Origin: Synechococcus sp. M16CYN
GTDB lineage: Bacteria; Cyanobacteriota; Cyanobacteriia; PCC-6307; Cyanobiaceae
Direction: 5' to 3'
NCBI RefSeq assembly: GCF_040371545.1
Contig: NZ_AP029048.1
Location: forward strand, 1,116,001 to 1,180,000
DNA: 64,000 bases
A program made the position numbers and the translations under genes. Of the stretch, positions 2,306 through 33,356 are shown piece after piece. The notes beneath the pieces are model-generated. The model was not told the origin of the DNA and searched no databases. It saw nothing but the letters and a program-made list of their open reading frames with translations. The stretch's first letter is position 1. Every line of letters starts with the position of its first letter.

Positions 2306-2389
2306 TGCATTTTGGATTTGTGATGTAATGAGGTTATCACCATACAATTGATTATGTCTTAGTTTGCCGTAATACTCTTATTTCTAAGC

Positions 2390-2395: not shown

Positions 2396-5221
2396 TGTAC
2401 AAAATCTAGTTTCTCACACTGTTAAGATTTGCTATTAGCAATTCTTTTACACACTTGTAGGGATTGCTAGAGGATTTTGAATGTAAATAAGTCTAAAAAT
2501 TTCTAGTTTTAAGTAGAAATTTTGACTACGAGATTACTACATTAAATAACTCTATTTGATCTGTCTATTAAAATCAGTATTTTCAATAACTTAGGCAAAA
2601 GTTTAAATACATGAGATATTAAGAGTATTAGATTTTCTTTAAAATTAATTTCAATAAAATTTTATCTTCTAAAAAGTTCAATATAAAGCTATGTTTGATT
2701 GAACGCTTTTTCATGAACCAAAGTACTTTTATGTTTTTACCAAAATTTTTGAAGCAGAAAGTCAAATCTAATTAATTTTAATTGTCTCTGTTACTAAAAC
2801 ATAGAATTTGTTGTCAATTAAACATGTTAAGCTAACTTAAGCTAAAGTTAGCAAGAGTAATTAGATATTTATTTGTTAATAAAAGATTTTATCTCAAACC
2901 GCATGAAAGTTTTTATATTAAAAGGCTATTATACTTGATTGTCAGATAATTATTTGAGATTTTTAGTTTCAAGAACTAAACTAATTATGAGAAATATGCA
3001 ATCTATAATCAGATAAGATTAACTATGTCTTGACTAAATTTTAAATTTATTACTCTTTATTTATTAAAAAATGAGCTCAATGTTTTAATTATACCCTAAT
3101 CAATGATTTTTAGTATGTTGAATAGCTTGTCAAGTTTAAAATTTAACTTCTTTATAAGAAAAATATGAATTTATAGCAATATCATACTAATACAAATTGT
3201 TCTTACCTTAAGTTAGCAATTTTGTGCCAAATTCTTAATATTTTAATCTATAAACTTTCAAAGGATATATAGTCTAGTTCTTTAAATTAATTAGTTAATA
3301 TATGTAACTAATTTTCTTAAAATCTATAGTAACTTTTATTGCAAGCTAATAATTTTAGTATCTGCTAATTATTAATTAAAAATTTAAAGTAATCATTTAT
3401 TATAATATTAATAGGTTAATCCTTAACCATAACTCTTAAACTTAAACTAATGAATAAAACTAAATACTAATATAAATTTTTAGTTTAAGCTTATTAAGCT
3501 CTAACTTATTGATTGATATCTTATTTTGATTTGATTATCTCAGAAGGATCATATTTATACAAATAAAATTTATATTGCTTATTTAAAAAATAATTAGTTT
3601 CTTATAGGTTTTATACATGATAATTTTGTTATCTTATAGAATTTATTCTGTATTATTAACAATTTTACTTATTGAACTAATTCTTAACTCTTTAGTTTTA
3701 TTGTAAATGCATTTTGCCTCAGTTATTTAGTAAATTTACAGCTACTGCTAAGGTAACTGATTCAATACATATAAATATTAGCTAGAGCAAATACTGTTAT
3801 AAATAAAATAAAGATATTTACGTAAAATTTGAGTTATTTAATGTTAACTAGTAAATTATTATTATCTAACTTAAAAAATGACAATATTTAGCATATATTC
3901 TCTTAAAATATTTAGATTATTATTGTTAGGATATTCTTATTTTTTATTGTTCTGAAGTATATAGGTTAAATATTAAAAATCTTAACTACATAAAATTTGA
4001 TTCGCCTCATATTATTTGCCTTAGGAAAATTTACATACTTTATTCAGTTTACGCTATTAAATTAATAAATAGTCTTTAGCGATAGTATTCAATACTTTAT
4101 TGCACTAAATAATTTTATATTTTTTGCATGAATAGTGATTTTTTATTCTATAAGAATTAATTACTGTGTTTTTAGTATACAACTGATCTAAAAATTTTAG
4201 CGTATGTACTAGTTCATGACTTCTAAAAACTAATAATATTTTAACTGCTGTTAATAGTTATTAAACAAGAAGACTTTTTATGCGTTAAGTTTATATTGAT
4301 CTAAAAGTAATGTACTAATCAATATAAACTAAGTTATTGTTAACCTTTAATAACATTAAATAAAACATAATACAGTATTTTATTAGTCTTTCTATTATTC
4401 AATGTAATTATATGAATTTTGCCATGCTTTAATTATTGAAGACAGATTAAAACTATTAGGATTGTGGACATTATTGTACGCTATAATTAATTAATATCTT
4501 TATATAGAAATAATAATTGCAATTCTTTCAAAATATACTTAAATACATATATTGCGATAACGCTAATCCACTAAGTAATATAAAATAGCTGTTTTCATAA
4601 TTTAGTTTAAATCTCAAGAGATATTATCATTAATTACGAATTAAATTAGTTTATCGTAATTTATTGTAAAACTAATTTTAAATTTGAGGTGCTCTATATA
4701 TAAATTGAGACAAATATTAAATCTAATAAATCTTTGATTGTTTACAATCTAAGCACTTAAATTGATAATTTTTTCTAATAGTGTAATTTTTATAGCGAAT
4801 ATATTACCCTCTATCAGACTGGATAAGTTTAACATACATACCGTCTGCCGTTAGATTAAAATTAATATCCTTATTTATTTATCTTATTAATAAAAAGTTT
4901 TGAGCTAAATATCTTATACTTCCTAATTAGTTTTGATAATCACTTAAGTAAAATTTATTAATGCTAATGGTTTACGCAGTTTATATGAACATAAAATGCT
5001 GAAACTAGCTTGAATATCATTGATAAACTGTTGGTTATTAGCTTAAAATATTTATATAAATAATAGCACTTGTTGATTCTAATTCTGCTCAATGTATTTT
5101 ATTGCTTTTAATTCTCATAAAGTTAAGTTCTTAACAATCATTATAATAACTACTAAATAAAGCTTATATCGCAAACTGACAAACCTAGTTCCTTTTGGTG
5201 TTCTAATCAAGAAATTTTGCC
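2396..5221. other. AT-rich gene desert
   Basis: About 2.8 kb between the divergent ocp operon and the J-domain gene. The sequence is dominated by A and T, all frames are interrupted often, and I see no protein-like translation, tRNA or strong hairpin. It may be decayed former genes now beyond recognition; that is inference. Confidence 0.6.
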
Positions 5222-5250
5222 TTGACGGACTTCGGTCAGCGCTACATTAA
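5222..5250 (+). promoter_or_regulatory. Possible promoter of the J-domain gene
   Basis: TTGACG at 5222-5227 is followed after 17 nt by CATTAA at 5245-5250, then the ATG of the J-domain gene 33 nt later. The -35 is good and the -10 is weak. The local rise in G+C just here marks the edge of the desert. Confidence 0.3.
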
Positions 5251-5282
5251 TGACAATGACCTTCTTATGTTAAAAGCAGACC

Positions 5283-6062: not shown

Positions 6063-7154
6063 GTCTTCCATTGAACATCTTTAGCAGTTAATTCTCACTT
6101 GAAAATTATTTTTTAATGATTGATATAAAATCTTTTGCTTTTGAAATGCTATCTTTTAATTAATTTACAAACTTTGTTAAAAACCTAATAATAACACTTA
6201 ATTAATGTTACTAGCCATCTACTTTCACATAAAATTATTCAAATTAAATGTCTATATAATGACATTTATTAAAGCTAATATATTGATAACTTTTGCAATA
6301 AATAGTAAGTTTGGCATTTACAAAAAATGAAATTTATCTTCGCTCAATTAATTACATGAGCATTTTGCTAATTAATAATATATATATTATTATTTTGTAG
6401 TTTTTATTTATTTAAATTTAGCTTATACATTAACTTTTTATGATTTTTTAATCTAAATTTTTAGCTTAATAAATATTAATTCAATAGTTTTCTATTGATA
6501 AAATAAAAGTAGAATTACTTTATCTTTTTAATGTAAAATTGTCTATAATTAAAAGAGTAATTTGTTATTATACTATTAATTATTAAATCTAAATATATGT
6601 GATATAATACTACAAAATTAATAGACTAAAACTAATTAAACTCATCAATATTTTATTTTCTATAATAAAGTATATCAAGGCTAATAATCTTAATTAATAT
6701 TGGCAACTAAAATTACTAGTTTACAGCTAAGTATTATCCTTAATAAATTTTTAACTTAATGCTTATTATTAATAAATTTATTTATCTAGCTTTAGCTCAT
6801 TAAAGTACTAATATTTCTCAAATTCTAGTGTAAATTACTGCTATAAAAACTTAAAATTAATTTTATCTACTAAGAGAAGTATAAATATTCTTTCATAGAA
6901 AGTATTTTTTCTAATTTATAGTAATTTTACTTGATTTTTAACAAAATTAAAATAATTAACTATTTTAGATATTTATATATCATTGTAATAACTCTTTACA
7001 ATTATTTTAAAGATATTGCTTTAAGTAAATATATTATTCAATATAATTAGAGCTATTCTAATTATTTTTTAAGCAAAATTATAATGGACAAACTAATACT
7101 AAAAAATAAATGGTTAATTTTTATGAGCAAAAAATGACGTCTAGTATCTAGGAT
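6063..7154. other. AT-rich gene desert
   Basis: About 1.1 kb of very AT-rich DNA with stops in every frame. I see no gene, RNA or ordered repeat. Confidence 0.6.
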
Positions 7155-7280
7155 CTAAGAATCATTATTCTTTTCTTGAGATGGCAAATCTGAGGGCTGT
7201 ATCAGTACGTATACAACAGCAACAGTAAAAATTACTCCTACGATAATTAAAGCAGTAATTGCCATAGTGTAGTCAGTCAT
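7155..7280 (-). CDS. Small single-span membrane peptide (41 aa)
   Basis: A complete ATG-to-TAG frame of 41 codons in the middle of a gene desert. Residues about 7-27 form one strongly hydrophobic helix rich in I, V, A and L, ending YVLIQPS, followed by a polar tail with SQEKNNDS. Local base composition is clearly less AT-rich than the flanks and the codons look selected, which makes chance unlikely. The size and layout resemble the tiny subunits of photosystems, cytochrome b6f and NDH-1 complexes, but I cannot match it to PsbM, PsbN, PsbX, PetM, PetN, PsaM or another named subunit. Function is unknown; it probably lies in the thylakoid or plasma membrane. Confidence 0.6.
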   Translation of the reverse strand: MTDYTMAITALIIVGVIFTVAVVYVLIQPSDLPSQEKNNDS

Positions 7281-8632
7281 AAAGGTGCTAGTAATCATTA
7301 AAATTTTAACACTTCTATGTTGCTAATAAAAATAATTATTGAAGTCCTAAAATTTTGCCTGATTTTATTATTTCGAATTAAATTAATTTAGTCTTAATAA
7401 TTGGAACTGAGGATAAATAAAGTTTGACTTTAATAACATGATTAATAAAGCTAAACACTTAATTTTTATAATTATTTGTTATTATTAGTCTTTGTTCAGA
7501 GAAATAAATTTTAGACTCGCGAACTGTTTACAAAAACTTATTTATTGAAGTACAGATACTTTAATATTGCTCATAATTTTTAGCGTTTAAAGTCTTTTTT
7601 GATAATTGTAGCGGCTATGTAATGTATTGCGATTAAAACTAACTATGAGGTCAAAAGTTTTAAGCTGCATTAGCCTTGATTTAGTTAAAATTAATATATA
7701 AATATATCTTAAAAACTTTATTAATATTTTGTTTTGGTAAGCTATAGAATAATTATTTTCTTATGTAAGTTTATATTATTCAGCGGAAATTTAATTTTGA
7801 CTGTGAAACTTTTAAATTGAATAAAATTTGAGTTTCTTATTTAAGATAGTAAAGCTAGCAAAAGATCTTGTTTAATTAGATAATTATGTTATTTTCTTGG
7901 ATCCATGGTTTTAAATCTTCTCTTTTATCAAAAAAATAATACCTCCTAGTCTAGTATTATCATATGATTTAGTGAATAATAAATTTTTAATCAATTACTT
8001 TTTATAAAAAATTTTAATTGTACCAGCTTAGACATTATGTAAATTTATTTTATTTAAGCATATTGTTAATACAAGCATAGTATATAGTTCTCTTCTTTTA
8101 CAGAAATTACGTAAATAGTAATATTTTACTTGTTTTTTTATTCTATTATTTTTGCGTGTCTACATTAGCATTACACTTTTATTGTATTAAAGTTTTTATT
8201 TATATTATCTTAGCTATTTCTTATATTTATTAGTACTAATTCTAATTTATTTTACTAGTTAAATTAGAAATCTAAATAGTTTTATTACGCTTTTATAGAT
8301 TAAGATGTCTTATTTGTATTCTTAACTAACAAATAATAAGAGTATAATTATTATATTGGGTCTTTAAAAGATTAAAAAACTAGTACAATGTAAAATACTT
8401 TTAAATTTGGTATAAAATTTTTTAGTTTATCTCTTTACGTAATGAATTATATTGTTTATTCAACTAACTCTTAATACTTTATTAAATACATTTAATCATT
8501 GATTCTAGCTTTTAAACAATCATTAAAACTAGCCCTAACATATTTTATTATAATTAGCTTTTATACCTATTAGATTAGACCTTACCCCAAAATTTTTAAT
8601 TAATTATTATGTATATTATTGATTATATTTTA
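7281..8632. other. AT-rich gene desert
   Basis: About 1.35 kb with no protein-like translation. A short frame near 7901 ends after 14 codons and is not convincing. Confidence 0.6.
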
Positions 8633-8860
8633 TTATTTAGTTCGTTTACTTATGATTTCACTTTGCATGATTTGCATCAAACGCTCCGGGGACTTATATT
8701 GTTTTGGTAATGAATGATGTAATTTCTCAAGTCGTTCCCAACATAACGTTCGTCTCAAACGTTCAGGCTTTTGTCCGTCTCGTAGTAAGAGCTTCATAGC
8801 TTTGCAATATAACGGATATTTGGCTTCGAGTTCACCAATGGTCAGTGTTGTGGATGGCAT
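8633..8860 (-). CDS. Conserved-looking hypothetical protein (75 aa)
   Basis: A 75-residue soluble, basic protein (many K, R and L). It contains the stretch LRRTLCWERLEKLHHSLPKQ, with a tryptophan, a histidine pair and a regular helical pattern. It looks like the short cyanobacterial hypotheticals that persist in picocyanobacterial genomes, but I cannot name a family. The ATG start at 8860 gives an N-terminal segment, IGELEAKYPLYCKAMKLLL, that would form an amphipathic helix. G+C is much higher than in the flanks, which supports a selected gene. A strong palindrome lies 50 nt upstream of the start. Confidence 0.6.
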   Translation of the reverse strand: MPSTTLTIGELEAKYPLYCKAMKLLLRDGQKPERLRRTLCWERLEKLHHSLPKQYKSPERLMQIMQSEIISKRTK

Positions 8861-8909
8861 TTCTTTCTATCCGGTTATTTGCTCCCAAGTGTGGCATGTC
8901 CTTAGCTAC

Positions 8910-8948
8910 CCCCCAAAAGGGGACAGACTAACTGTCCCCTTTTGGGGG
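8910..8948. repeat. Perfect 17-bp inverted repeat (hairpin)
   Basis: The left arm 8910-8926 and right arm 8932-8948 are exactly complementary, with a 5-nt loop ACTAA. Each arm carries a C-run, AAAA and a G-run (C5-A4-G4-ACAG), so each is itself nearly self-complementary. No T-tract follows on either strand, so a classical terminator is not obvious. It is a G+C island in AT-rich DNA. It could be an RNA hairpin, a protein-binding palindrome or a remnant of a small mobile repeat. Confidence 0.9.
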
Positions 8949-9289
8949 ATCAACGTACTCCCAGCTTATAGTCTGATTTTTAAAAGTTACCTTGTTTATA
9001 TTTCTTAAATATAAAGTTTACATGTATATGAATAAAAACTATTAAATACTTAAAAGTTTGTTAGAGCAATAGTGAGCATACATAGTGATATTATTTATAT
9101 AATAAGGCTTAAAAGTAGAGATATATTAATATAATTTTTTGAAAAAGCATAAGAAGCTAATTTTTGATAGTTAATTATAATCTTAATTTAGACTTCTCTA
9201 CATGCATTGATGTTTATAATGGCTAATAATGTTATCACTTAATAAAGGTAGATGCCTTATAACAATAATTTACCAGTTAATTAAATCTA
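8949..9289. other. AT-rich intergenic region upstream of the LuxR-type gene
   Basis: About 340 nt. Apart from the palindrome just before it I see no gene or clear promoter. An AATAAAGG-type stretch lies about 50 nt before the next start. Confidence 0.5.
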
Positions 9290-9976: not shown

Positions 9977-10097
9977 TATACGATGGTACTTAAAATATTT
10001 TAATTAGCCAAAGATATATTTATTTCCAGGTATCTTAATTTATTAATTAAATAATAATTTTAACTTTCGACAAAAATCTTTTGGAGTTTAAGTCGCT
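9977..10097. other. AT-rich intergenic spacer
   Basis: Short spacer after the LuxR-type gene. No terminator could be identified with confidence. Confidence 0.4.
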
Positions 10098-10178
10098 TCA
10101 AAATAAATAGGTGTAGCCATCAACTAAAACTTGAGTGATGCGAGACTGATTATATTGATCGCTCATTTTTAAAGGCAT
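10098..10178 (-). CDS. Possible very short ORF (26 aa)
   Basis: A frame with two in-frame ATGs (10178 and 10166) ending in TGA at 10098-10100, giving 26 or 22 residues. The shorter form reads MSDQYNQSRITQVLVDG and then YTYLF. It is hydrophilic and not biased towards K/N/I/F as random AT-rich translations are, so it may be a small gene or the end of a lost one. No family is recognised. Low confidence. Confidence 0.25.
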   Translation of the reverse strand: MPLKMSDQYNQSRITQVLVDGYTYLF

Positions 10179-11004
10179 TATCCAAATATTTTCTATTGAA
10201 CCTACTTATCTAATTTTAAGATAATTATATTTTACTAGTGCAGGTAATAATATATTAAAATACTTTGATACCCTTTGATTAATTCTCCAGTTATTTTTAT
10301 TAGTAATTTTTCTTCAAATACAAAAAGAAACAATCTTATTTCTCTATCTTAGTTAATAGGCTAGGGCTAGCGAGTGCTGAATATCCTTTAACTAGAAGAC
10401 TAGTTACAGATACTAATTTGTTTTTGTTGATTCTAACTGATAGCTTTGTTAAAAAGCTGCTGTTAATAATCCTTGCAAATATTGATATAGGTAGGATAAA
10501 TTATTTCTGTTATACAATTGAATTTTATGATTAAATTTTTATTATTTAAACTGTAATTAACTCTTTAACTAAAATTTTTCTAAAGCTTATCTTGGCAGAT
10601 ATGACGAAATTAGTTTTATTAGTCTTGCTATATCTAGAATTATTTTATTTTTTAGTATGATTTTGACTATAAAAATAATGGTTTTTATTTATTAGCTTCT
10701 GCAATAAAAAATATAAATAAAGTAGCCAATAATTATGTCAATTTTAAGGTTTGAAAATAATTAATCTATCTTAATATTTTACTGACAGTTACAGAGAGAA
10801 AACAAAGAATTTCTGCTATCAATTATTAAAGTATCACTTTTATTAATAAAAATTAAATATTTTATGACTAATTTGCTGTTTCAGCATCAAATTTTTTAAC
10901 CAATTATTGATTAGTTGTTTTATCTTTTGTTTAATAATATCAACCATACGCTTTAGCTTACAAAGCAGTTTACTGGGTATACTGCTTTACATTAAGTTCT
11001 CCTG
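10179..11004. other. AT-rich gene desert
   Basis: About 830 nt. One minus-strand frame around 10,340-10,510 stays open for some 50 codons without a start codon and is rich in S, L, K and N. I do not consider it coding. Confidence 0.5.
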
Positions 11005-13436: not shown

Positions 13437-13715
13437 TTACTTTTCTTCTTGCAGCGTTTTTAAACTCTGTAATAGCTTGGCTTTTACTGAGCAAGTTTTT
13501 TTGGTTTGTAAATTGGAGTTGCGTAAAGCCACGTTTACCCTACTCAGTTGATTAGAACTTGTTTGTTCCGTTCTGAGAATTTGTGTTGGACGATTTTTGT
13601 ATTGAATTTGCTTACGCCTTAGCAATTTTGCTGATCGAGTTAAATGCTGAACTAGAAGATTTTGCTGAACAAATGGATCAGCTTTCGTTAGTGAAACTAG
13701 ATAGCATTCTCTGAT
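13437..13715 (-). pseudogene. Probable gene remnant with lost start
   Basis: A minus-strand frame is open from 13715 to a TAA at 13437-13439, about 92 codons. The translation is hydrophilic and protein-like: TKADPFVQQNLLVQHLTRS near the start, then K/R/Q-rich, ending AKLLQSLKTLQEEK. No ATG is in frame at its upstream end. The only internal start candidate is a TTG at 13625, but the protein-like sequence continues above it. An out-of-frame ATG sits just upstream, so a small frameshift may have separated start and body. I do not recognise the family. A 62-residue gene from the TTG is the alternative. Confidence 0.4.
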
Positions 13716-15015
13716 TTACCACCAAACGTTTTCTGCTGTTGCATACTTCTTCAACTAAGTATCTAGGCTTAATCTGATGAATCAGTTTAGCTTGTTCGTT
13801 TCAACTTACTAGACTGGGATCTAGCTGCATAACATATGAAAGATATTTAATATTTCAAATAATTAATTATTTTTAAACTTGTTGTTGTACTAGCCTAAAA
13901 CTCACAGATAGTTATCGATGGTTTTAAGAGTCGTGTACTAACCATAAGTAACTATTTTTAACTTTAATAAGCCAAATTAGCTATCTAATTCTAATCTAAC
14001 TAAATATTTACTTACGCTAAGCATCGACTGTTTATCAATAACAATCTTAAAAGATCATGAATTCATTATAATTTAAATCATCAGACACGGAAAGGTTGTA
14101 ATTAAGCTAACTATAGACCTGGTCAAGTTCTTAATATTGACCTTAGCAATTTACATTAGCAGCAATTTTGTAAAGGATTAAGATCAAATTATTATACTAA
14201 AATAAGGTTGAGAAAAGTAGTTTAAATATGCAGTTTTCGCTAGGAAACTCTCTTAAGCAACCTCAAGAGTTAGTAATTTAGTAATATATATTGATGTGAT
14301 TCTGATATAATTTTACTTTCATGATAACCATGCACACTATCAATAATAAGTATTGTTATATTAGCTAATGATAAACCTTAATTGCTTAGAATTCACCGCA
14401 AGATTCAATTAGTTTATCTATCAACAATTTAAGTTTTAGCAATAAAATCACCTAAATCTAGTGTGTATTGTAAAATCCTTATAAAATTAGCCTCGACCAT
14501 TATAAATGGAGATCAGTTATTGTAGCTTAATTTTGTCATCTGCTCCTCTTAATAGTTGTTTTTATGCTCGTAATTAATTTTATTCGTTATAACTAATGAT
14601 ATATCCTAGTGAGAGCATTCTACTAACATAAGCGATTTGCTAAAACTACTAAATCTTCCGGGTTGATTCAAAAGCTGCTTAATAAAGTTGATTTAATCAA
14701 ACTCTTTTTTAGCAACAGTGGTCAATCCTGACTTCATTAATGTCTCTATTAACATAATACTGCGGAACAATTTTTATATCAACAACGCTGAAAGTTCCTA
14801 TTTAGGTAACTACTTAATAACGGTATGAAAAATATTGTCTAGGATGCTCAAGTAGTATGCTCTGCTACAATGCGCCGTCTTATTACCGCTGTCTCATCCA
14901 GCATATATGGTTAACTATTGATCGTAATCCCAACGATTATGACTGCTATAACAATGATTATGTTAACAAGGTTAATCACTTAGTTGTATACTTTTATAGA
15001 ATAAAATTCTAGAAA
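13716..15015. other. AT-rich region without recognisable genes
   Basis: About 1.3 kb. Composition is a little higher in G+C than in the 2.4-5.2 kb desert, consistent with more recent decay, but I see no translation I would defend. Confidence 0.45.
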
Positions 15016-15228
15016 CTAACTACTCTTTGTATAAAGAGTAATGTAGTAAGCATACAGCCAATATCGATAAAAATAACCAATCTTGCTAGGGATAAATATG
15101 GTGTCGGATATTGCAGTAACCCAGCCTATTAGGGTTAAAGTATTGACTGACATTAACCAAATAAGTTTACCTAAGGTATTATAATAATCTCGGTTACCTA
15201 ATTGTTTCGCCTGTTTTTGCAGGCTATC
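15016..15228 (-). pseudogene. Possible remnant of a membrane protein gene
   Basis: Between stops on the minus strand lies a 70-codon frame with no start codon at its upstream end (a TAG precedes it directly). The translation is protein-like: an amphipathic start (DSLQKQAKQLGNRDYYNTL), a hydrophobic segment containing LIWLMSVNTLTLIGWV, and an aromatic tail with YFYRYWLYAYYITLY. The only internal ATG would leave fewer than 50 residues. I read it as the 3' part of a decayed small membrane protein gene. No family is recognised. Confidence 0.35.
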
Positions 15229-16071
15229 CTATAATACATTTGACAAGCACTTTAGCAGAATTGACGGGTGATTCATAGAATTTGTTGTACTTTCTGGGCT
15301 AATTAAAGAGAATCTAATAGCTTTAAGTAAGTCTCGCTTTTTACTATAATTGTCGGATTATTTCTGTTATTTTAGAGCTGATATAAAAATTGTTCTATAG
15401 AATATCTTCTTGTGATTACTCTAAGATTGATTTTGATATCTATTTATTTACTTTAATAAAAATAAATTATGATCAATTTTATTGGTAATGCTAAATTACC
15501 AAAGCGATTAAAAGAGCTTTGTAGAACATGAAGCGATAAAACAAGAGAGATCAATATTTGAAATTTAATTTTGTTACATATTGATTAAAATGTTTACTGC
15601 TAAAATTATTTAACCTATATTTTTTGCTTCTCTTTACGATACTTTTTGTGTTGATGATGAATGAATGCGCATTCTTTAATTTATTGACATAAAGTTTTTC
15701 CTCCTTAGATTTCTTAAAGCCTAGTAGATATTCTCGACGTGAGAAGTAATCTTGGCCTTCTGACGTTGCTGTGTGAAAAGTTGTTTTTTGTGTGATTCTA
15801 TTTCATTAAATGGTACATTATTATTTAATTAATCTCTTAAAATTAATATTAATTTGTGTTAACATATTACAGATACTGTCTACATCTGTGATATTCACTC
15901 ATTAGCATTAAATTAACAAGATATCATTGGTTATCTTTATGCCTGAAACTTAAGTGTTGGTGGTGTTGAAGGGATAGAGCTAATCACTCACTTCTGCAAA
16001 GAACATTTGCAATACTGTGCATAATGGTTAGAACCAGGCAACGTAAGTACTCGTTTCTCCACAGTTAGTCC
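15229..16071. other. AT-rich region without recognisable genes
   Basis: About 840 nt with no supportable gene or RNA. Confidence 0.45.
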
Positions 16072-16197
16072 ATGTTGTTATTTGCATCTCAGACGGCTCA
16101 GGGCGGTCCTACTGTCATTCTGCCCGCTCTTTTGATTACGGGATTGCTAGTGGCAGCATCCCAGGCATTTGTGCCAAGGGGCGGTAACCAAGACTGA
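16072..16197 (+). CDS. Small single-span membrane peptide (41 aa)
   Basis: An ATG-to-TGA frame of 41 codons with strikingly higher G+C than its surroundings. The N-terminus has a polar AQGGPT turn, then one hydrophobic helix at about residues 14-33 (VILPALLITGLLVAASQ), then a basic/polar tail FVPRGGNQD. The arrangement resembles small thylakoid subunits, but I cannot assign it to a named one. A different-frame ORF that starts inside it (16169) lacks such features and is probably not real. Its survival inside a decaying region suggests function. Confidence 0.6.
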   Translation: MLLFASQTAQGGPTVILPALLITGLLVAASQAFVPRGGNQD

Positions 16198-17549
16198 CCG
16201 ATTTAGAGGAATCAAAGGGTTAAAACTAATTTTCGACTGGTTTCAATCCTACAACGATTTTGACTTTCAACTCATTGATAAAGATCAATTGTTTAAAGCA
16301 TTTATTCCAAATGCAGGCTATAGCAACTTTTTGATTTGGGTACTGAGAGTAAGCACCCTTCATAGGCTTAAACCGGTCAATTGTTCATGCTAAATTAGTT
16401 TTTTCATTCTAAGCTTAGTCGTTAATAGAATTTATATTTTCTTATTCTTGAAACTCTGGCTGTTACGCAATATATAGTGAGCTTATTTTTTTATGAAAGA
16501 GTCTAATTGCTATTTTAAATCCTATTATTTAAAATACAGTAAGTTAAAGCGAATCGGTTACTGCTACCAATCTGCTTCAAACATTACCAAATAAACTATT
16601 TCTAGAAGAACAAAATATTCCTTAAATTCGTGATTAATTAATGGTAAAAATAACGCTAAAAGTTATTATTAGTTAGTTGCTAAATGTAATTTGCTACTGA
16701 TTATATAGATAATTACCGCTAACTTTTGGCTTCTCAATAACAATTTGATCATTGGATTTTAAAATTTGTGAACATTCATAAAAAGTTAGATTGCTATTCA
16801 TCTTGAAGAGATAAATTAATATGAGTATGTTACGTCGATTTTATTATGTTAGTGTGATATTACAATTAGTTGACTAATTTTTCGTCTTGATCTCGAATAA
16901 TAAATTTTACCAAGATATGAGTTAAGTTTTAGTTATTGGCTATATCAATTGCTATTGTATCTAGACTAATAACTAATTTATAAAAACTCGCTATAGCTCA
17001 ATTATTTGCACTACATTAATAATATGGATAGATTTGAAAAAAGTGGTTTGACTTTCTTAAGGCGTTGCCTATGAACTGTTCAGGACTTCGTCGATAAATT
17101 TTTTAGAGATGATATTGTTATTTTGATTAATAGTTTCCATTGAATTTTCGTATGACTGAGATTCTTAATGGTGATGCGAACCACTGCAGCAGCATCATGC
17201 CTAATTCATCCACGGCAAATTTACCTGCAACTTAAGCCACCTTAAAAGATAGCTTTACAAATTTTAATACAAATAAATAACAAGAGTTTGCTCACATATC
17301 CATATTTTTTATACCACATAGGTACGCCCGAGTGACAATTTTGGCACTGTGGCAGTAGTTCTCGAGCTAAGTATTCAAAGTGTACTTAGCCTAGAAGAAA
17401 CCAGACATGGTAGCGGCGATTGTGATAACAACAAGGCGCTAATATCCAGTTTAAATGCATAATAATATTTAAAGTTTAATTACTAGTGTACTTATTGTTT
17501 GCATCCGCTTGTATTAAAGAGGTGGAAGCATAGCTCCCATTGCAACGCT
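16198..17549. other. Degenerating intergenic region
   Basis: About 1.35 kb. Around 17,250-17,375 the minus strand contains a short protein-like patch, LARELLPQCQNCHSGVPMW, with a CxxC pair and no proper start. It may be the debris of a lost gene. Nothing else is supportable. Confidence 0.4.
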
Positions 17550-17804: not shown

Positions 17805-18532
17805 AAGACACTTTCCCTCGATTGCCCATACCCCCGTTGCTTGGCATGGATCTGACTGCAGCTTTGCAAGAAAACTCAACGTAACCATATTATAGCATTT
17901 CTACGTTAACCGTTGCCTCCTGAATTATTACTATGTACTTCTCCTCATAAGAGTAAAAGTTTTATGGCTAGACTGACGCCTTTGCTAATTAACTTATTCA
18001 TTTATTTATATATAAAATGTAATATAGAATAGACTTAATCTTAGTAATTATTAAGGTAAGATTACGGACTTAGTTTAAATATTAAGACAGATATAATCTA
18101 TTCAAATTTAGTAAAAAAATTGAATCAGTTACGATATAAATGAATAGCATTAATATCAATTATTGAAAATTTCAGCCTAAACGATGACTGTATTGAACAT
18201 CACATTAGTAATTTAACTAAATATTAAGTTAAATAATTGACTCGTTTAAACTTTAGCTAACCTATTAATATATTTCATATATAGCAATGTCCAAAACATT
18301 TAAATCAGTGAAATTGCTAGTTCTCTCCTTATTAAATTAACACTAATTTTTGGACAGAATTAACTCTTTTATTCATCAATAGTAGATTAGTAAATTTGTT
18401 TATGCTAAACTTTTTATAAATCATATTTAATTTTACTATGTCTATGCTAATATTATTTTTAATTAATTTATTTTATCCACATAAGCTACTTCACTTTAAA
18501 CTATACAATTGCTGTTTAAACGACCAGCTTGT
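17805..18532. other. AT-rich intergenic region
   Basis: About 730 nt downstream of nth (which ends at 18533). No terminator or gene could be supported. Confidence 0.5.
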
Positions 18533-21025: not shown

Positions 21026-22250
21026 AAATTTAGTTTAAACCATTGACTACACTTATATCTAAGCGTCCGCTATTTGATGCCGACTTAGTGACTCTCTAGA
21101 CAAGCTTGGTTCCGTATTCACGCCTTACACCGTTCCACTTCTACATGCTCAAGATTTGTCGATTCCATATCAAGTGTTAGCAATGTTATCAAGGCTTTCG
21201 TCACAATCCAGTGCTTCATAAAGACACTTAATTAGGGGAATGGCGTAAAACATAACGCTTAGGTTAATAAGCAAGTGCTTGCTTGATTTTTGATCTCCAA
21301 GGAAAACTAGGAACAATACTGTATTAAGTCTTTGTTTACTTGGAGTAAGCGAACTCCAGGTCCGTGTTGTAAGAAGGTAGTCAGCTTGGTGAGAGGAAAA
21401 TTTGCTCCTCATTAGCGTTCGCCAATCAAACCGAGGGAAATCCAGGAGCAACCTAGTACAAGTAAGCCCGTTAACATTCCAATAGTTCGTGTAGGTTAAA
21501 TCCTACAAGTTTAAAAAATCGGGAGGATGCAACAAACTAGTCAAGATATTGAAGCGTCCTTCTCCTTGCAATTGCGGATACCACTATTACTGTAAGGGCA
21601 AGATTGACCATCACATAGCTCACAGCCAATAGGTTGTTTATGTTGCACTTACCTAGGCTTTAGGTCGGTTGTGCTGAGTCTGTCCAAAAGGATTTGACTG
21701 GTCAGAGGTTACTCAAGAGCGTTTAGCTGAGGACCCTCGTAGCACCCAGGTTCCTTGCCTAACCACAGATTAGACTAATGAGGAAAATCCAAAAGTCGTT
21801 TTAGAGCGCGACCATTCCGTTTCGGTATCTCCCGCGGCCTACAAGGCTGCTGGTTGTGCTGACCTCAGCTTCTGTAGTATTTTGTATTCCTGCGTATTTA
21901 TGCAATCACCACCTGAACCAGGCCATTAAAGGCTAATGACCATCGGCGGCATTGCTACTATCCACGATCTTTATTAATTTGGTAGAAGCTTAATACACAG
22001 GTTGGGTGTCTAGCTCGGGGAGCTGTCTAAAAGCTGGTGCATGTGTCCGAGTACAAGTAAATTCTGCTTCCTGGCATTGGGAGATAATAAGAAGCAATTA
22101 GAGGGTGATTTCATTGTCCTGGCATAGATAAAGTTATGCAACGGGAGGCTTTGCTAGGTAAGCAGGCGACATAGAGCCCAGCCAAGCCGTACGAATTAGT
22201 TGGACTATGGGGAGCATCATGCCTACGGCTCATGTGCTCATACTGAATTG
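21026..22250. other. Non-coding insertion or decayed DNA inside the mnt operon
   Basis: About 1.2 kb separates mntA from its permease. The base composition is near that of coding DNA, unlike the AT-rich deserts, yet no protein I recognise is encoded. The longest frame (minus strand, 21170-21451, 93 codons) has no known motif. A small stem TGTAGG/CCTACA occurs near 21,490-21,510. I infer a recently decayed gene or foreign insert. Confidence 0.5.
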
Positions 22251-23312: not shown

Positions 23313-23397
23313 GCTGAAAGATTTCTAGTCTACGCTTCGTAATAGTTGTTTTTTTCGTCCATCCGATGTGCTTCCTTGTTAAGGATCCGTTTAACCA

Positions 23398-23709: not shown

Positions 23710-24790
23710 CTAGCATCTCAATTCTGGTTTCTGCTCAACAGCTTAGACCTGACTAACAAGCATTTGCCACTGATTAATAGTAATATTTTTGGAGCATCAA
23801 AATCGCCAAGCCGACATTTGAAGTCGAATTAGCCATAGCTTGTCTTATCTAGATTGCAATTGCTTCTAAGCTCTACCTGTATATTATCCAAGTGAGACGT
23901 TCATCTGGTTTCTTTTTTGGTCGTGATGATAGCAACCAAAAATTTGGAAACAATTTCTGTAACGATTAAAAATGATAGATAAGTTTGTCATATCTTAACG
24001 CCCACAAGTTCGTCGTGAAGATGTTGCCGTAGAAGACTTGTTTAGATAGGTATTGCTTGTGAAAAGCCAATAGATTCCTCCAAGGATGTGAGAGAAATAT
24101 TTCATGAAAGGAGCTTAGTTTCACTAAAGTAAGCATCTTAAAAAGATGTCATTTACAATAATGCATGACTCTGGAAAGGATAAAACTCACTGCGGTTTAA
24201 GTACGATAGCGTCAATATAGTAGATTACTTAAGCCGTACCAACGCTATTGCGATAAAATCAAGCAGTACGTTAATAATTTAGTCACGCCTTTTAAGATCA
24301 AAGAGCCTGATTTGGCTTGTTGAAAATCAACACCTCAGGTTCGTAGACGAAAATCCCTACGATTGAATGGCTGTCGATATTGGTTATCAGACAGTTGATT
24401 ATAGAGCTGATTCTGCTTGATATACTTGATGACGGTCACGTCGCCCAAAAGTTCAGATTTGAGGATCAGTTAAATTATAGTTGTATCGATCTAAAGAACT
24501 AACTCAGTAGCATTTTTAGGTAGTTATTAATTCTAGAAGAGGTTTTTTAACTGCCTATTATTTAGCATTGTCAGAGATTTACAGCTGGACTATAAATGCA
24601 CATTGTATTAAATATTTAGATTTAATAAGTAACCTATCCAATTTATCAAACTATTATTACTAATAGTGTTCAGTACTAAAATTATGGCGAATTCATGTAT
24701 TCATAATCCAAAATCTAGATAATAAAGCATAGACTAACCGCTAAGTCTAAATCTATTACGATCAATTTCGAGCCGCTTTTTAATGCCATT
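23710..24790. other. Intergenic region with intermediate composition
   Basis: About 1.1 kb. Several stretches have coding-like composition, but every frame is broken and nothing is recognisable. A candidate decayed gene region. Confidence 0.45.
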
Positions 24791-25699: not shown

Positions 25700-25924
25700 T
25701 GAAATGATGGAATTAGGTAATGCAACCACTTCCTCGAAGCCAGGCTATACAACTAAAACTAGACCGGAGTGACATCCTAACGATCTGTATTTCACGTAGT
25801 TTTAGGATTGAGGTAGGTTGCAGCCCTAATACTTAGGCGGTCACATGACAGCCAAACAAATGCTGAGCTAACCGCTTTAGCCTGGCTGTTGTTTGCTTAG
25901 GTTATCAAAAAAGGTGCTCGGCTT

Positions 25925-26110: not shown

Positions 26111-26251
26111 AAATTTTTCCTTTACAACTTCACTGTGACATCAATCATGGCTGCAGCGCCATAATCTTTCGTTCATGTTTGCGTTTCAACGCTTCGTAAA
26201 GTTATAAAACGCTTTGGCTCTTTAGAAAAGCCCGTCGATCTGCTAACCGTG

Positions 26252-26563: not shown

Positions 26564-29500
26564 TTAAGATCGTATACCTCTGTGAAATTTGTCAAAATAG
26601 CTTTCTATAATCAGCCTCTTGAAAAGAGCAAAGATAAGCTAATTATCTGGATTTAAGTACCATTGTACAAGACGCTGACGTAACATAAGAAAACAGTTAG
26701 GTAAAGATACAGGCACGTTACTAGAATAGCAACATAATGGTAACTGTTTTTAAATAAAGTAAAGAAGAGGGTTTATTAATAATTGATCGCTAAGTTAATT
26801 TTTAGTTAATCATATCTTTACTTTTTAATTATATTGAATATTATATAAATTTCAACAAGCTAAATAGTTTAGCCCAATAATTAGCAGTTTTATTTATAAA
26901 AAAAAGAGGTTAATAAAAACCGCAATTAATTATATATTAAGAATAATTTAAAAATTTAATACTATAGTTAGACAGACTTAACTCAACCAGTTAATAATTA
27001 GCCTGACTAGATTGCAAAAAATATTGCTAATGCAATAAGATATTTACTGTATAATTTGTTTGTGAAATAAAACTATTATTAATGATATAAGTATCTATCC
27101 AATAAATAGTTCCCGCCAAAAATTTTTTAAAAGTTAAAAATATTCATACTTTTATGAGCTTAGGACAAAGGGCTAATCCTAATAAAACTTATTTTTATAA
27201 TCACGTCATATTTCTGAATTAAAATCTTTAAGAATTCAGTTTTAACTATATTAATCAAACTAAGGTTAGATTATAGACACAATAACGCTTGTATTAAAGA
27301 TTTTATAGGATTGAATGATTTAAATATTATTATAGTAATAAGGTAATTTAATTACGATAAAATCTCTATAAGAGATTAAACATACACTCATAATTTTTTT
27401 CTATAAATTAAAAATATTAACTTTTAATCAGTACTATATAAGATGTTGCGATAGTTTAATAGACATGCTAATAACAAAATTATATAATATAGTATATTTA
27501 AGTATACCATACTATATATGGATAATTATCGTGCAATTTAGTACATTTGTATTTCTTAGAAAATTAATCTAAAATCATATTATCTAAACTTCTAAATGAA
27601 GATTTAGGCAAAGTAAGATAATGATAAAACACGATATAATAGTAACTATATATAGATAATTATCCATATTAAATATTAAGATTTAAACCTTTATTAAGTT
27701 ACTATTTTAAATTATTAATTTAGAATTATCAAAATTTCTTTGAGATAAATAGAATTAATTTCCATCAATTAAAATTTGCATACCTAAATAAGTAATTATA
27801 GCAATCATTCGAATACTTACTAATTAAATTAATTAAATATCTTCAATTTTTAAAGTTTATACTTTTAAGGTTAAAAAATTATTGATTAGACTGACTATCC
27901 AAGACAAATTGTTTAATATTTTAATTTAGTTTTACGGTAAAAATTACTATAACTATATTCAGAGCTTATTATATATCTGACATTTCATTTTCTACTTTTG
28001 ATCAAAAAATTTTTATATAAATTAAAAATAAGATTTGTCATTTATTCTTAATTTCGGATTAGTTTAATAATAAAGAATCTTGATTTAGGATAGATAAGAA
28101 TTGTGATAGTTTCTAATAACTATAGTTTTTGGCATATAAAATTTGTATATGTTTTTCTAAATAAAGTTCTAAAAAGCAGATAGCTGGCCTAATCAGCTAA
28201 TATTTTATAAATAGCTGTATATGCTGTTTTTAATTAAATATTTTAAATTATTCAACATAATAATATTTTTTATTTCTATAACTTGATACAAAGTTATGTA
28301 TTTATTCTTAAACCATTCTATATCATAAAAGTTATCATTAACTGATATTAATTTTGTTTAATTAATGATAAGCTTTAGGATACATCAATGAAATAAAATT
28401 AATTATAATCTTTTACTTTTAGATGGAGCCAAGGCTATAATTGTGGGTAAAAAATTTAATTCTAGTTTATTTATCTGGCAGAAGTGCCAATAATTTACTG
28501 TCTAAAATTATCTTCTACTAAATTATTTAAGTACTAATTTTGAGTTAAAAAGTCCAAAATAATTAACCTCACTAATTTTTGTGGGTATTAATAACTGCCT
28601 TTCATCTAATAATTTTATTCTCTTAGTAAGAATCTTTTTATAATTGCATTTAATCAAATTAGGACAAAATTTTATCTTTTAATACGTATGAACAATAAAT
28701 ATTCTATCGATCATATAATATCTAACTATTTACTAAAATAGTTAGAGATAATCAGCAATTCTATATTGAGTTATTCAGTAGAATTTATTTAATTAATAAG
28801 TTAATATTATCTTATAATATACGAATTTAAGTTAACTATTAAGTAATTTTTAGAAGACTAATTTAATTGATTTAATTATATTTTTATCTTAAATTATACT
28901 AAAGTATTAAGAATAAAACTGGTAAACAGCTCATCAGCTGTAGAAATAGCTCTTTATTGAAAGAAATAGAATGTAGTGTAAGAATTAATAAATCTCTAAT
29001 TAAAAAATGTAACTAAAATAAGGTTAGTAACAGTAAAGATTTAAGGGAAACGCCATCATATTTTATGATTTATATCTTAAATATAAGTCACTTATATGAT
29101 TTTAATAGTAAAGACTAAGCTAAACCATTGATTATGAATTAACTTCATGTTTAGATTTTTATTAATATATTTAATTACCTATTATTTACATAAAAATGCT
29201 AGTCAAATAGACTTTGATATATGTTATCCACCAGTCAACACTAATTAACAACTATTTATATAGCTGATAATGACTTATCATTAGATTTACATTTATTAGG
29301 CAAAGAAATAACCTAAATTCCTAAAATTGACTATTTTCTAATTATTTAGCTAACGTAAAAATTTTACTTATTTATAAAAATGCAACAATTTTTTCTATCT
29401 TATTTATTTTTGAGATAAGAATATTTAATTTTATTATGATATGACTCCTTAACTTTTAATTTGTTAAGCTTAATTCATGAATTTAAGTGAACTCTATCTG

Positions 29501-29596
29501 CAATTTTTTGAAATAGCAAGGTTTCGACATGTTCATAGTCATTGGTCTACTTTAGATTCATCTAAGTGTTGCTTCTGGGCTTTGCCCTTTTCTCTA
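26564..29596. other. AT-rich gene desert
   Basis: About 3 kb, the largest gap in the window. It is dominated by A and T with stops in all frames. A 13-nt inverted pair (ATGGATAATTATC near 27,518 and its complement near 27,653) is present but may be chance in such sequence. No gene, RNA or regular repeat is seen. Confidence 0.6.
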
Positions 29597-29692
29597 ATGG
29601 CACAAACACGTAAAGAATTAGTATTACTAGGCGGAACCTTTTTAGTAGGCCTTAGTGCCCTTGAAATTTGTCTACGAATAGGAGGCTTTTGA
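29597..29692 (+). CDS. Very small membrane peptide (31 aa)
   Basis: An ATG-to-TGA frame of 31 codons: basic start MAQTRKE, then a hydrophobic helix with LVLLGGTFLVGLSALEICL and the end RIGGF. A longer frame from 29477 adds 40 residues rich in C, H, W and F that look like untranslated leader. The layout is that of a one-span subunit, but no named one matches. Its composition is less AT-rich than the flanking desert. Confidence 0.45.
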   Translation: MAQTRKELVLLGGTFLVGLSALEICLRIGGF

Positions 29693-30031
29693 TACATTAA
29701 TTTATTTATCAGATTTAGGACTCGCCAAAATTAATGTTATTATTGAACTGTATTCAATACGCTTAATATTTTAGCTAAGGTTTAATTAATATTGCTTATT
29801 CCTATGACTTGACCAATTTTAGGCACAAACCAATAGAATTGGTTAGAGATATTGCAAAAAACTCGTTTGTGTATTATTTAAAGCTTATAAAGCTAGGTTA
29901 GTGAATAACTATATAGCTATATTAGAATTTACAGTTCCCGTTATTGAAAGATCAGTGATTACCATGTACGACAGCTTGACTAAATCGGTTTGCTTTGATC
30001 GTGTTTCATCATTTAGAATGTGAGTTCGCTT
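29693..30031. other. AT-rich intergenic region
   Basis: About 340 nt with no recognisable feature. Confidence 0.5.
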
Positions 30032-30688
30032 ATGTCTGCTACTCAAGTTCTTAAAGAACACCAACGCTACAAACTTGATAACAATGATGACGCTCTCTTT
30101 TATAGTGAGCCTCGCTTCGTTTATCACTTAGACGCTGGATTTCGAAGTCGTTTAACTACCCTATACAGACAGCGCATTCCATCTTGCGCTGTCGTTCTCG
30201 ATCTGATGAGTAGTTGGGTCAGTCACCTTCCAAAGGATGTAATTTATGATAAGGTAATTGGCCATGGACTAAATACTGATGAATTGTTGGCGAATCAACG
30301 TTTAGATTCGTATTGGATACAGAATTTAAATCGTGATCAACGTCTTCCCCTGAATGACACCAGTGTCGATGCTACATTGATCGTAGCTGGTTGGCAATAC
30401 CTTCAACAGCCAGAATATATCGCTAGTGAACTTTTACGAATCTCTCGCCCGATGGGGCAAATAATTGTTGCATTTTCTAATCGAATGTTTTTCACAAAAG
30501 CACCACAAGTGTGGACTGATGGTGATGATAATGATCATCTTAATTATGTAGCATCAGTATTAATAGCTCAGGGTTGGCTCACTCCAGAGATTATTGTAGA
30601 AAACAAGTGCTCTGATAATTGGATGAGATTGTTTGGAAAGAGATGTGATCCATTTTTTGCTGTCATCGCTACTAAACCAAAACCGTGA
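30032..30688 (+). CDS. SAM-dependent methyltransferase-like protein
   Basis: A 218-residue protein from the ATG at 30032 (a GTG at 30020 adds four residues). It resembles class I methyltransferases: CAVVLDLMSSWVSHLP corresponds to motif I with the acidic binding residue, YDKVIGHGLNTDELLANQRL to the second strand and the acidic loop, LPLNDTSVDATLIVAGWQYL to the motif IV region, and ELLRISRPMGQIIVAFSNRM to the later strand and helix. The glycine-rich part of motif I is poor (LDLMSS instead of LDLGxGxG), so activity is not assured, though this divergent form is common in cyanobacteria. It stands alone between deserts. The substrate is unknown. Confidence 0.65.
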   Translation: MSATQVLKEHQRYKLDNNDDALFYSEPRFVYHLDAGFRSRLTTLYRQRIPSCAVVLDLMSSWVSHLPKDVIYDKVIGHGLNTDELLANQRLDSYWIQNLNRDQRLPLNDTSVDATLIVAGWQYLQQPEYIASELLRISRPMGQIIVAFSNRMFFTKAPQVWTDGDDNDHLNYVASVLIAQGWLTPEIIVENKCSDNWMRLFGKRCDPFFAVIATKPKP

Positions 30689-32306
30689 TTGACTCAATTC
30701 TGAGTGATAACAGTCTCTTCTTATATGATTCTTGAATCTGTAAGGTACATTTTTTACTGTATAGCCCTCTCTACTACAAAATAATCAGTTTATTTTTAAT
30801 TTAGCAGTTCTCTGTACATCCTAAACTTTATTTATGCTATTTAAAATTTTCGTTTGGTTTATTATGAGTTCATATTTTGCTGTGTACATATATCTTCTGA
30901 AATCTAGTCATAGTAATAGACCTTAAATCACTAACAATCAAATGTTTGATAAGTTACTCTTTCTTGTAAAGATCTCAAAAATGTGAAGCAATTTCTTTCT
31001 CTTTTTAGTAAGAGAGTAGCTCAAGTGATTCATCTAAAAACTCTGATTAAGATGCGTACAAGATTTTAAAGATTTACAAGCTTTACTTTCTAAAAGCAGA
31101 TATTTTCCTCAATTTTTAAGATAAATTGTACTGTATCTTAATCTTAACATATTAGCACGGATAGCAATGCGCTTTATATTGACCAAATTATACTTTAAAC
31201 TTGGTATCTATATAGATTTTATATTTCCTATTTTTGCAACCTAAAATCTCTGAATGTAATCTTTCGGTAACAGTGAAACTGAAAATTCACTAAAGAATCC
31301 CCACTGTCTAAGTATGATTTAATTATCAGGTAATGATAATATTTTTCTTAGTTATGAATTGATTTAAATCTTTAGCATGTATTTATTAACTATGATTTTG
31401 CTATTTGCAGTAATTGACTGATTTAATTTGTTGTTAGCTAACTTGTTTTTATTTGCAAAAGTTATTAATATTGATAAAATTTTAATATCTTATGAATTTA
31501 ATTTAAGGGGCAGTAATAGGAAGTTTGATAACGAGTGTAAATGCCTAGGCTTAGATTAACTTATATAAAGCTAATTTTGGATTTGACTTATCTTCGGATG
31601 CCATCCGTTAATAGAAAAATCTATTTTAATTAATCATAAATCTAGAAATACAATATTTTATTCATCTTAATCAGCAACTTTCTAAACGTTTTATAGTTAT
31701 ATCGTCTTGCTAAGCCCCGTCTCTACCCTCAAATCTCAAATTGTGAGACTAAGTAGTAGTGGCAAAACTATTGAATTTTAAAAGCAACAACACACTTGAT
31801 TGAAATTAACACGTAGCATCAAATTCTTGTCAGCAGATTTGATGAGCTATGATCTTTGTCAGTTTAATTTAACTTTTCTGAAGGGTATAAGGAGTACAAG
31901 TCTTTAAAAAACTATCTATAGCAACTTGTTTAAACATTTTTAGCGCAGGTTAGCCAGATCCTAATTAATAGCTTTCTTACTTTTCTCTTGCGTAAGTAGC
32001 TTATACTCAGATCCTGACAATCGTTAGACTAAACCTATGAGTATGCAACAACAAAATAAAATATCGATAATAGCAATAGATTCCAATAATTATCAGCCAA
32101 AAACACGCCAAGATCTTGGTATTCTATGAATTAGCTAATTCATTAAATAGTGAGTCAAACTAATGTATAAGTTATTTATTAATAATTGAGAGCTATCCTA
32201 GTAAAGATAATAATCTGATTCTGATAACCGATATTAATACATTTGATTCATATAGTTCTGAGGTTAATACACAGAATACTAAATGGAAGTAAAGTCAATT
32301 TAATTA
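30689..32306. other. AT-rich gene desert
   Basis: About 1.6 kb. A modestly GC-richer patch near 31,700-31,780 does not give an open frame. No RNA gene is recognised. Confidence 0.5.
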
Positions 32307-32390
32307 TTAATCCCATACTAAAATAAGAACAGTCAACAGAGCAGCAAATACTAGGAATGGGGTGATGATGGTCAAAATAGATTGTGTCAT
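32307..32390 (-). CDS. Very small membrane peptide (27 aa)
   Basis: ATG-to-TAA, 27 codons. A short polar start (MTQS) is followed by a single hydrophobic stretch with ILTIITPFLVFAALLTVLIL and a VWD end. This is the size range of the smallest photosystem and b6f subunits, but I do not recognise it. The run of hydrophobic residues could also occur by chance in T-rich DNA; the proline, the normal mix of codons and the locally raised G+C argue for a gene. Confidence 0.45.
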   Translation of the reverse strand: MTQSILTIITPFLVFAALLTVLILVWD

Positions 32391-33356
32391 TATCAGTAAT
32401 GCCTGTACCCTATAATTATTCTTGCAGCATGTGTGAACTGTCAATTTTCTGAAATCGACTGAGATTTTTAAATAGCCTTAATTATTATTAAATATATTTG
32501 CTTAAATAAATCTGTTTACTTTAGCCCGTTCTAAACTATATTTATTCTGGTGATTTTAAAGATTAAATATAATTTAAGAGAAAACTCTAACAAATAATAT
32601 TAACTTTGAAAAAATTGAAGTCTAAGTCTGATTCCAAATTATAATTAGTGTTTTAGTTCAAAGTCTGCTGACAGTGGCATCAAAATTAGCAAATTAATTG
32701 TGTTTAATCTTTATTTAAGTTAATTAATAGTGTTTTAATTAAAAAATAAATTTGGTGACAACATATTACAAAAATGAGCAGTCTTGCCTATTATCTGGTT
32801 TGTATTTCTTATTAATAAGTTACAACTTTGTTGCCAATTCATCTTTATATCAAATTTGTAGTAATTTAAATGCAAATTTGATGTCACGATCTTAAAGAAA
32901 ATTTTATATTCTCTGTATTATAGTTTTTCTATGTAATTTTTTGGATGCGAATTAACATTTTTATTTAAGTAGTTACTAACATAATTTTCTTTGCTTAGTC
33001 ATATTAATTGCTAAATATTCTGTATACTTTCTAGATTAATTTACGCGGTTATCGTGGTCGCAGGTGATTAAAATGCAAAAAATAAATTTTATGAGTCTGG
33101 TTAAATGTTCACAGTGCAATAATAAATTTTAGTATACTCAATCAACCCATGGCTTTTAAGGCCACATTAATTCCGCAGATTAATAATAAGGTATAATTAA
33201 TTTCTCTTGAGATATGTTGATAATTCACTGTTGCCATACTGTGTATCTGGTTACTGGTTAGTTAAAAGACTTAATTTATAAATTGTATAACCTGTATATC
33301 AAGGTGAGTTAATGTAAAGTTAGCTATCATGATAAGAAGCGGTTTTTTAACCATAT
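32391..33356. other. AT-rich intergenic region downstream of nadA
   Basis: About 970 nt. A tiny GGTTTTTTAACC stem lies about 15 nt past the nadA stop but is too weak to call a terminator. No gene is seen. Confidence 0.5.

Follow-up and report, generated by a model that had tools for sequence, protein, structure and literature searches.

The 64,000-bp stretch of DNA analysed here (the window; positions 1,116,001–1,180,000 of the chromosome of Synechococcus sp. M16CYN) contains, mainly in its first 34 kb, a series of A+T-rich gaps with few genes. These deserts are very probably a gene graveyard in CregCyn, a marine Synechococcus restricted to its host, the dinoflagellate Citharistes regius: genes decayed in place or were cut out, and the G+C content of the remaining DNA mirrors local composition. 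The window is collinear with the genome of a relative, remains of lost genes lie in their original places, many gaps have kept their length, G+C at fourfold-degenerate sites is below that of the relative, and coding density is low already in the relative. Relaxed selection caused by host restriction would account for the losses, with A+T-biased mutation as the probable agent. Positions below are window coordinates unless marked otherwise; G000 is the genome of the window, and G006, G014, G026 and G032 are genomes of relatives.

The window is located on a chromosome of 1,940,073 bp in a genome of 1,957,399 bp and two contigs, the second being, by subtraction, about 17.3 kb long. Two 16S rRNA gene copies are found on the chromosome, at 1,073,860 (plus strand) and 1,937,995 (minus strand). 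The published CregCyn genome consists of a 1.94-Mb chromosome, joined from contigs of 1,073 and 854 kb and a 6-kb rRNA contig used twice in inverted orientation, and a 17-kb plasmid (PMC11150560). Chromosome, plasmid and the two inverted rRNA copies fit closely, and the genome of the window is taken to be that of CregCyn. This organism is sister to the clade IV strains CC9902 and BL107; its protein repertoire was reported to be a quarter to a third below that of free-living relatives, genomic islands were described, and its restriction to the host was argued from size-fractionated metagenomes (PMC11150560; Nakayama et al., 2024). Reduction of this genome is already published; the gene fossils, length retention and gap composition described below go beyond the main text of that paper, which nowhere uses the terms "pseudogene," "coding density," "intergenic," "non-coding" or "noncoding."

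Of 58 other genomes, those matching the permease gene best were G006 and G014, single contigs of 2,234,828 and 2,285,034 bp, which are probably CC9902 and BL107, respectively. The window is collinear, gene by gene, with positions 953.7–1040.5 kb of G006, as part of a longer collinear stretch of 354 kb (own chromosome 1,104–1,458 kb; 303 anchors). Owing to this collinearity each gap has a counterpart and can be compared with the genes that it once held. Alignment of the flanking genes to the relative's genome, proposed in the first-pass annotation of the window, indeed matched the gaps to genes of the free-living relative. Present in the G006 counterpart and lost here are genes for a short-chain dehydrogenase, Cu/Zn superoxide dismutase, a glycosyltransferase, a beta-lactamase-fold hydrolase, a phycobilisome linker, a CP43-like antenna protein, an acyltransferase, an ABC ATPase, a PAP/fibrillin protein, and the helicase, ligase and exonuclease of a ligase-associated DNA-damage-response set.

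Several short conserved genes escape a simple gene caller based on codon usage, and coding density of the window was therefore computed from the frames conserved in G006 plus 6S RNA. It amounts to 34.3% in 1–34000 and 80.9% in 34001–64000, in agreement with the one third and 80% first estimated, and falls to 28.9% in 2396–33356. The desert begins approximately 12 kb before base 1 of the window, near chromosome position 1,104 kb, and low density is not limited to the window: eight sampled 20-kb stretches of G000 gave values of 0.58–0.73. With a caller of the same kind, the coding fraction was 0.632 over 264 kb of G000 including the desert vs. 0.808 over 320 kb of G006. Density was therefore below that of the free-living sister lineage at both scales, as in other reductively evolving symbiont genomes. 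The claim that the gaps lack open frames holds in that 15 gaps of at least 300 bp in 2396–33356 contain two frames of at least 60 codons vs. 5.3 ± 2.2 in dinucleotide-shuffled sequence; it does not hold for four conserved micro-genes of 41–47 codons within the deserts, which by arithmetic add about 1.6 percentage points of coding sequence to 1–34000.

Remains of the lost genes were searched for by protein-to-DNA local alignment tolerating frameshifts and stops, run strand-specifically for each lost gene against its own gap and compared with 100 dinucleotide shuffles. The test set comprised 93 lost genes, called at a length of at least 300 bp, in 46 gaps; four lost genes in gaps shorter than 150 bp were left out, and one gap of 9.9 kb was cut to 5 kb. 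In the matching gap 25 of the 93 genes scored z > 3 and 17 scored z > 5, vs. one and none on the antisense strand. When each gene was aligned with four non-matching gaps of similar length, two of 372 comparisons exceeded z = 3 and none exceeded z = 4. An equal signal in non-matching gaps, which would speak against decay in place, is thus absent, and an earlier run with fewer genes and 60 shuffles agreed. Such remains in syntenic place are a trait of reduced symbiont genomes. Ordinary tblastn of the G006 proteins against the gaps, the search first suggested, recovered almost nothing; the remains emerged with frameshift-tolerant alignment. Within the window, eight of 27 tested genes exceeded z = 3, four of them z = 5. 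Two are marginal (z 3.0 and 3.2) and six are clear (z > 3.8):

4650–5222, plus strand: fossil of the short-chain dehydrogenase gene; 52 of 191 aligned residues identical, 10 stops, 6 frameshifts, z 12.4.
14203–14516, minus strand: weak fossil of a 124-residue G006 gene at 966727; 29 of 103 identical, 7 stops, 2 frameshifts, z 3.9.
16751–17102, minus strand: fossil of the beta-lactamase-fold (Pfam PF00144) gene; 33 of 118 identical, 3 stops, 4 frameshifts, z 4.7.
24048–24412, minus strand: fossil of the ABC-transporter ATPase gene; 48 of 119 identical, 3 stops, 5 frameshifts, z 21.1.
35287–35672, plus strand: fossil of a 360-residue G006 gene at 1010632; 38 of 130 identical, 7 stops, 4 frameshifts, z 6.6.
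50126–50431, plus strand: fossil, outside the desert, of a 186-residue G006 gene at 1027484; 43 of 97 identical, 2 stops, 5 frameshifts, z 21.9.

The short-chain dehydrogenase fossil stops about 60 bp before a kept J-domain gene, and the intact G006 gene stops about 45 bp before the same gene.

Comparison of gap lengths points to deletion as well. Over the collinear stretch the gaps total 97.6 kb vs. 171.6 kb in G006, while among the 39 gaps whose lost genes include one conserved in G014, 23 have retained 0.6–1.4 of the G006 gap length. The absence of whole blocks (10.6 kb reduced to 0.64 kb at 17889–18532) together with the many gaps near their old length indicates that both deletion and in-place decay occurred. 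The gaps, which carry no strand, are as follows:

2348–5282: desert gap, G+C 0.220; G006 counterpart of 2188 bp; keeps a clear fossil.
6063–7154: most A+T-rich gap, G+C 0.177; 1092 bp vs. 143 bp in G006.
7299–8632: desert gap, G+C 0.200; G006 counterpart of 1355 bp, 201 bp of it called coding.
9977–11004: desert gap, G+C 0.237; Cu/Zn superoxide dismutase gene in G006, no fossil (z −0.3).
13715–16071: desert gap, G+C 0.296; 5133 bp in G006, including the glycosyltransferase gene.
16198–17549: desert gap of 1352 bp, G+C 0.308; 1503 bp in G006 with one 491-residue gene.
17889–18532: gap of 644 bp vs. 10.6 kb in G006 (CP43-like antenna, phycobilisome linker and others); a fossil was found for none of the four genes tested.
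21026–22199: gap between kept ABC-transporter ATPase and permease genes, G+C 0.436, the highest of the desert gaps.
23710–24790: gap of 1081 bp, G+C 0.346; 1154 bp in G006.
26564–30019: largest desert gap, 3456 bp, G+C 0.226; 4822 bp in G006 with the PAP/fibrillin gene; one marginal match (22 residues, z 3.0) alone, for one of three genes tested.
30689–33356: two gaps flanking a micro-gene; 11.0 kb in G006 with the DNA-damage-response set; one marginal match (42 residues, z 3.2) alone, for one of six genes tested.
35193–36199: gap of 1007 bp, G+C 0.386; 2067 bp in G006.

All 15 relatives tested have the acyltransferase gene, of which nothing readable is left in 21026–22199 (z 0.8). Its sole match in the whole of G000 comprises 62 residues with seven stops and lies in antisense orientation within the adjacent permease gene, at a place where the frame called in G006 overlaps the permease gene. 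An origin of this gap as a foreign insertion or repeat was considered and rejected: it has no match in 11 other genomes and matches only itself in G000.

Several other features were observed. At the desert edge (255–2347) genes for the orange carotenoid protein (92% identical to G006), a member of the fatty acid desaturase family and the fluorescence recovery protein are intact. The A+T-rich 1.3-kb gap at 58815–60150 (G+C 0.326) separates two genes that in both G006 and G014 adjoin or overlap each other, and could represent an insertion here or a loss in both relatives. Beyond the window, a gap of 9.9 kb (G000:C1:1234280–1244194; G+C 0.292) corresponds to 3.4 kb in G006, and its first 5 kb contain no fossil of two G006 genes.

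Base composition has drifted at sites expected to be neutral, another trait of reduced symbionts: median G+C at fourfold sites is 0.436 vs. 0.578 in G006 (261 genes), and gap G+C is 0.297 vs. 0.479 (33 gaps of at least 600 bp in G006). Within the desert, gap G+C ranges from 18% to 44%, and the per-gap values agree with the variation noted at first sight (very A+T-rich at 2.4–8.6 and 26.6–29.6 kb, intermediate at 21–24.7 and 35–36 kb). This variation had been taken as a clock of staggered gene loss, in which all gaps drift towards one shared A+T equilibrium and the G+C-richer ones are the younger. Such a reading is unlikely. Gap G+C did not significantly follow the best fossil score over all scored gaps (rho 0.11, p = 0.49, 44 gaps), over gaps with a gene conserved in G014 (rho 0.13, p = 0.44, 39 gaps; partial 0.24, p = 0.14) or over the 23 length-preserved gaps (rho −0.07). 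Median G+C was 0.323 in 20 gaps with a fossil (z > 4) and 0.331 in 20 gaps without one (z < 3; p = 0.58), four gaps at z 3–4 being omitted. In 63 gaps of at least 300 bp, G+C instead tracked the G+C of the relative's gap (rho 0.63, 59 gaps), that of fourfold sites in neighbouring genes (0.58, 63 gaps) and gap length (−0.45); in the 20 fossil-free gaps it still tracked the first two (rho 0.60 and 0.61). Single gaps tell the same: the acyltransferase gap, with the highest G+C, is devoid of readable traces, whereas 2348–5282, with about half its G+C, keeps a clear fossil, and 23710–24790, which starts 2.7 kb from the acyltransferase gap at a lower G+C, holds an ABC ATPase fossil of 40% identity.

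The gene-level test leans the other way. For 66 lost genes conserved in G014, many of which share gaps and are not independent, gap G+C rose with fossil score (rho 0.34, p = 0.005; partial 0.35, p = 0.004). Weak rises with G+C were also seen for fossil identity, by segment G+C (rho 0.35, p = 0.19, 16 fossils), and for length retention (rho 0.31, p = 0.057, 39 gaps). Detectability does differ between losses: the ABC ATPase and acyltransferase genes are about equally conserved (90 and 93% in G014, 68% each in G026), yet only the former left a fossil. The notion of a staggered record survives in that the losses seem to differ in age, but G+C does not date them; it tracks the region rather than fossil preservation, although it may contain a small age component. 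The density of stops and frameshifts per aligned codon was dropped as a measure of age, being limited by the local alignment.

Part of the desert is older than the losses. The G006 counterpart of 2348–33356 is itself only 55% coding (G+C 0.474), and that of 33357–64000 is 91% coding (G+C 0.539); for 7299–8632 and 8861–9289 the counterparts are nearly equal in length with little called coding sequence. It is nevertheless very improbable that ancestral low density, with the same gaps in the relatives and nothing special here, is the whole explanation, although it is a part of it. Own coding is 28.9% vs. 55% in G006 (gene-finding rules differ), genes shared by all 15 relatives tested are lacking here, and 23 of 35 G006 genes of about 100 residues or more lack a counterpart, some having fossils in place. 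The corresponding loss in the counterpart of 33357–64000 is five of 27, and the wider desert lost 35 of 52 genes vs. 65 of 279 elsewhere in the collinear stretch (Fisher p = 2.6e-9). Because the G006 region is already gene-poor, the border at 34 kb is largely that of an old gene-poor region, deepened by loss. The contrast between the two parts of the window, first ascribed to reduction, is thus due to real losses in part, and in part was inherited.

That the gaps are functional, as non-coding RNA or long regulatory DNA under selection, is the least probable reading: a Glutamine-II riboswitch occurs at 17825–17884 and five short gap stretches are conserved at the DNA level, one of them a hairpin, but the other four are micro-genes, Rfam yielded nothing else credible in 1–34000 (with a permissive threshold the sole addition was a microRNA match at the hairpin, scoring far below cut-off), and the rest of the gap DNA has no blastn match at E 1e-3 to the compared stretches of seven relatives. 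The micro-genes are the following:

7155–7298, minus strand: 47 codons; a single hydrophobic segment on visual inspection; identical to G006 at 30 of 40 aligned residues.
13583–13714, plus strand: 43 codons; conserved leader from 13493.
16072–16197, plus strand: 41 codons; homologs in 29 of the 33 other genomes of the genus.
32307–32444, minus strand: up to 45 codons; conserved C-terminal hydrophobic stretch.

Nucleotide differences at the three codon positions number 11/3/31 in 7155–7298, 11/2/25 and 6/3/24 in two others, and 14/14/24 in the fourth, so that the third-position bias is clear in three of the four and less clear in the last. For all four, residue identity to G006 exceeds that of all 1000 random placements of an equal number of changes. 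No Pfam family scored above cut-off for any of them. Some of the 33 genomes searched for the 16072–16197 gene are incomplete, and none of 25 genomes outside the genus contains it. The leader at 13493–13582 is common to G006, G014 and partly G032, and has no Rfam match. The hairpin at 8911–8946, near-perfect, with arms of type CCCCAAAAGGGGACAG, lies between a DUF3136 gene and a LuxR-type regulator and is similar in G006 and G014. The riboswitch (17825–17888) extends over the 5′ end of a DUF4278 frame, whose true start is therefore probably further downstream.

The age of the losses was approached by simulated decay, for which an equilibrium G+C of 0.25 and a rate of indels were assumed. Detection was 14 of 16 genes (0.88) at 0.4 neutral changes per site and five of 16 (0.31) at 0.6; summed over both branches, the distance to G006 at fourfold sites is about 1.5. 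Under this model the readable fossils would date from roughly 0.3–0.6 neutral changes per site after loss. Among 282 G006 genes of at least 150 residues in the 354-kb stretch, 199 have a single matching frame that covers more than 80% of them, 75 lack an anchor, and eight are partial or double-anchored, four of these being overlapping neighbours at full coverage; at most four could be fresh wrecks. As nearly all genes are either intact or unanchored, few losses look fresh. It is tentatively possible, if somewhat doubtful, that gene loss came as a wave that has now largely stopped. The graveyard would then be neither fully deleted nor added to, and the surviving islets would mark functional elements, including uncharacterized micro-genes.

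Several points weigh against reading the deserts as a graveyard throughout. For 68 of the 93 lost genes no fossil was found at z > 3, and in-place decay is there assumed, not seen. Some of these may be gains in relatives, and 27 of the 93 have no ortholog in the G014 stretches compared. The 10.6-kb G006 block at 17889–18532 may also be partly such a gain: in G026 the homolog of the 16072–16197 gene lies about 4.6 kb before the ABC ATPase gene, vs. 4.1 kb here and 14 kb in G006, and this spacing close to our own suggests that part of the apparent deletion may be gain in relatives. The gaps 2348–5282 and 6063–7154 are longer than their counterparts, which simple decay does not explain.

With these reservations, the following course would account for the graveyard. 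The stretch probably descends from a variable region that in the free-living ancestor was already poor in genes and richer in A+T, where most accessory genes would have become useless after symbiosis began. Part of the DNA would then have been removed in blocks, and much of it kept at roughly its old length while A+T-biased point mutations and small indels wiped the sequence. What is still readable would be what selection keeps, namely ordinary genes and a few micro-genes, and the composition of a gap would say more about local base composition, in part inherited, than about how long ago its genes were lost.

Before their genomes shrink, bacteria confined to a host are considered to go through a stage rich in dead genes. 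Here a marine picocyanobacterium appears to have been caught at that stage, and a close collinear free-living relative makes each dead gene nameable and its decay measurable. Two consequences follow: since the composition of a region persists after a gene is gone, the time of loss is poorly told from how A+T-rich a gap is, and the decay of surrounding DNA makes conserved micro-genes stand out.

Loss of DNA-repair genes, a further trait of reduced symbionts, was found as well. The ligase-associated helicase, present in 15 of 15 relatives tested, is absent from G000, where its only match is a different helicase (29.6 bits). The ligase-associated DNA-damage-response set of G006 and G014 is missing at 30689–33356; the ligase and exonuclease located beside the helicase in G006 left no trace in the matching gap, the region to which this statement applies. 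Speculatively, loss of repair might feed the drift to A+T. Expansion of mobile elements is common in young symbionts. No transposase was present among 20 reading frames scanned in 255–30688, no systematic search for mobile elements being made.

The counterpart of the desert in the free-living relative resembles the genomic islands of marine Synechococcus, for which variable content and enlarged intergenic regions have been described (Dufresne et al., 2008; PMC2441476). The G006 counterpart shows island-like traits, with a G+C of 0.474–0.476 and 55–57% coding sequence vs. 0.53–0.54 and 84–91% in adjacent stretches; the likeness lies in the A+T-richer, gene-poor character, short of identity with a predicted island. 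Among host-associated cyanobacteria, the obligate plant symbiont known to carry pseudogenes is reportedly the cyanobiont of Azolla. Pseudogenes or reductive evolution, as found here, were described for that plant symbiont (PMC4369082) and for the spheroid body of Rhopalodia (PMC2246100). What differs here is that in the collinear stretch most of the lost genes, 68 of 93, are no longer readable.

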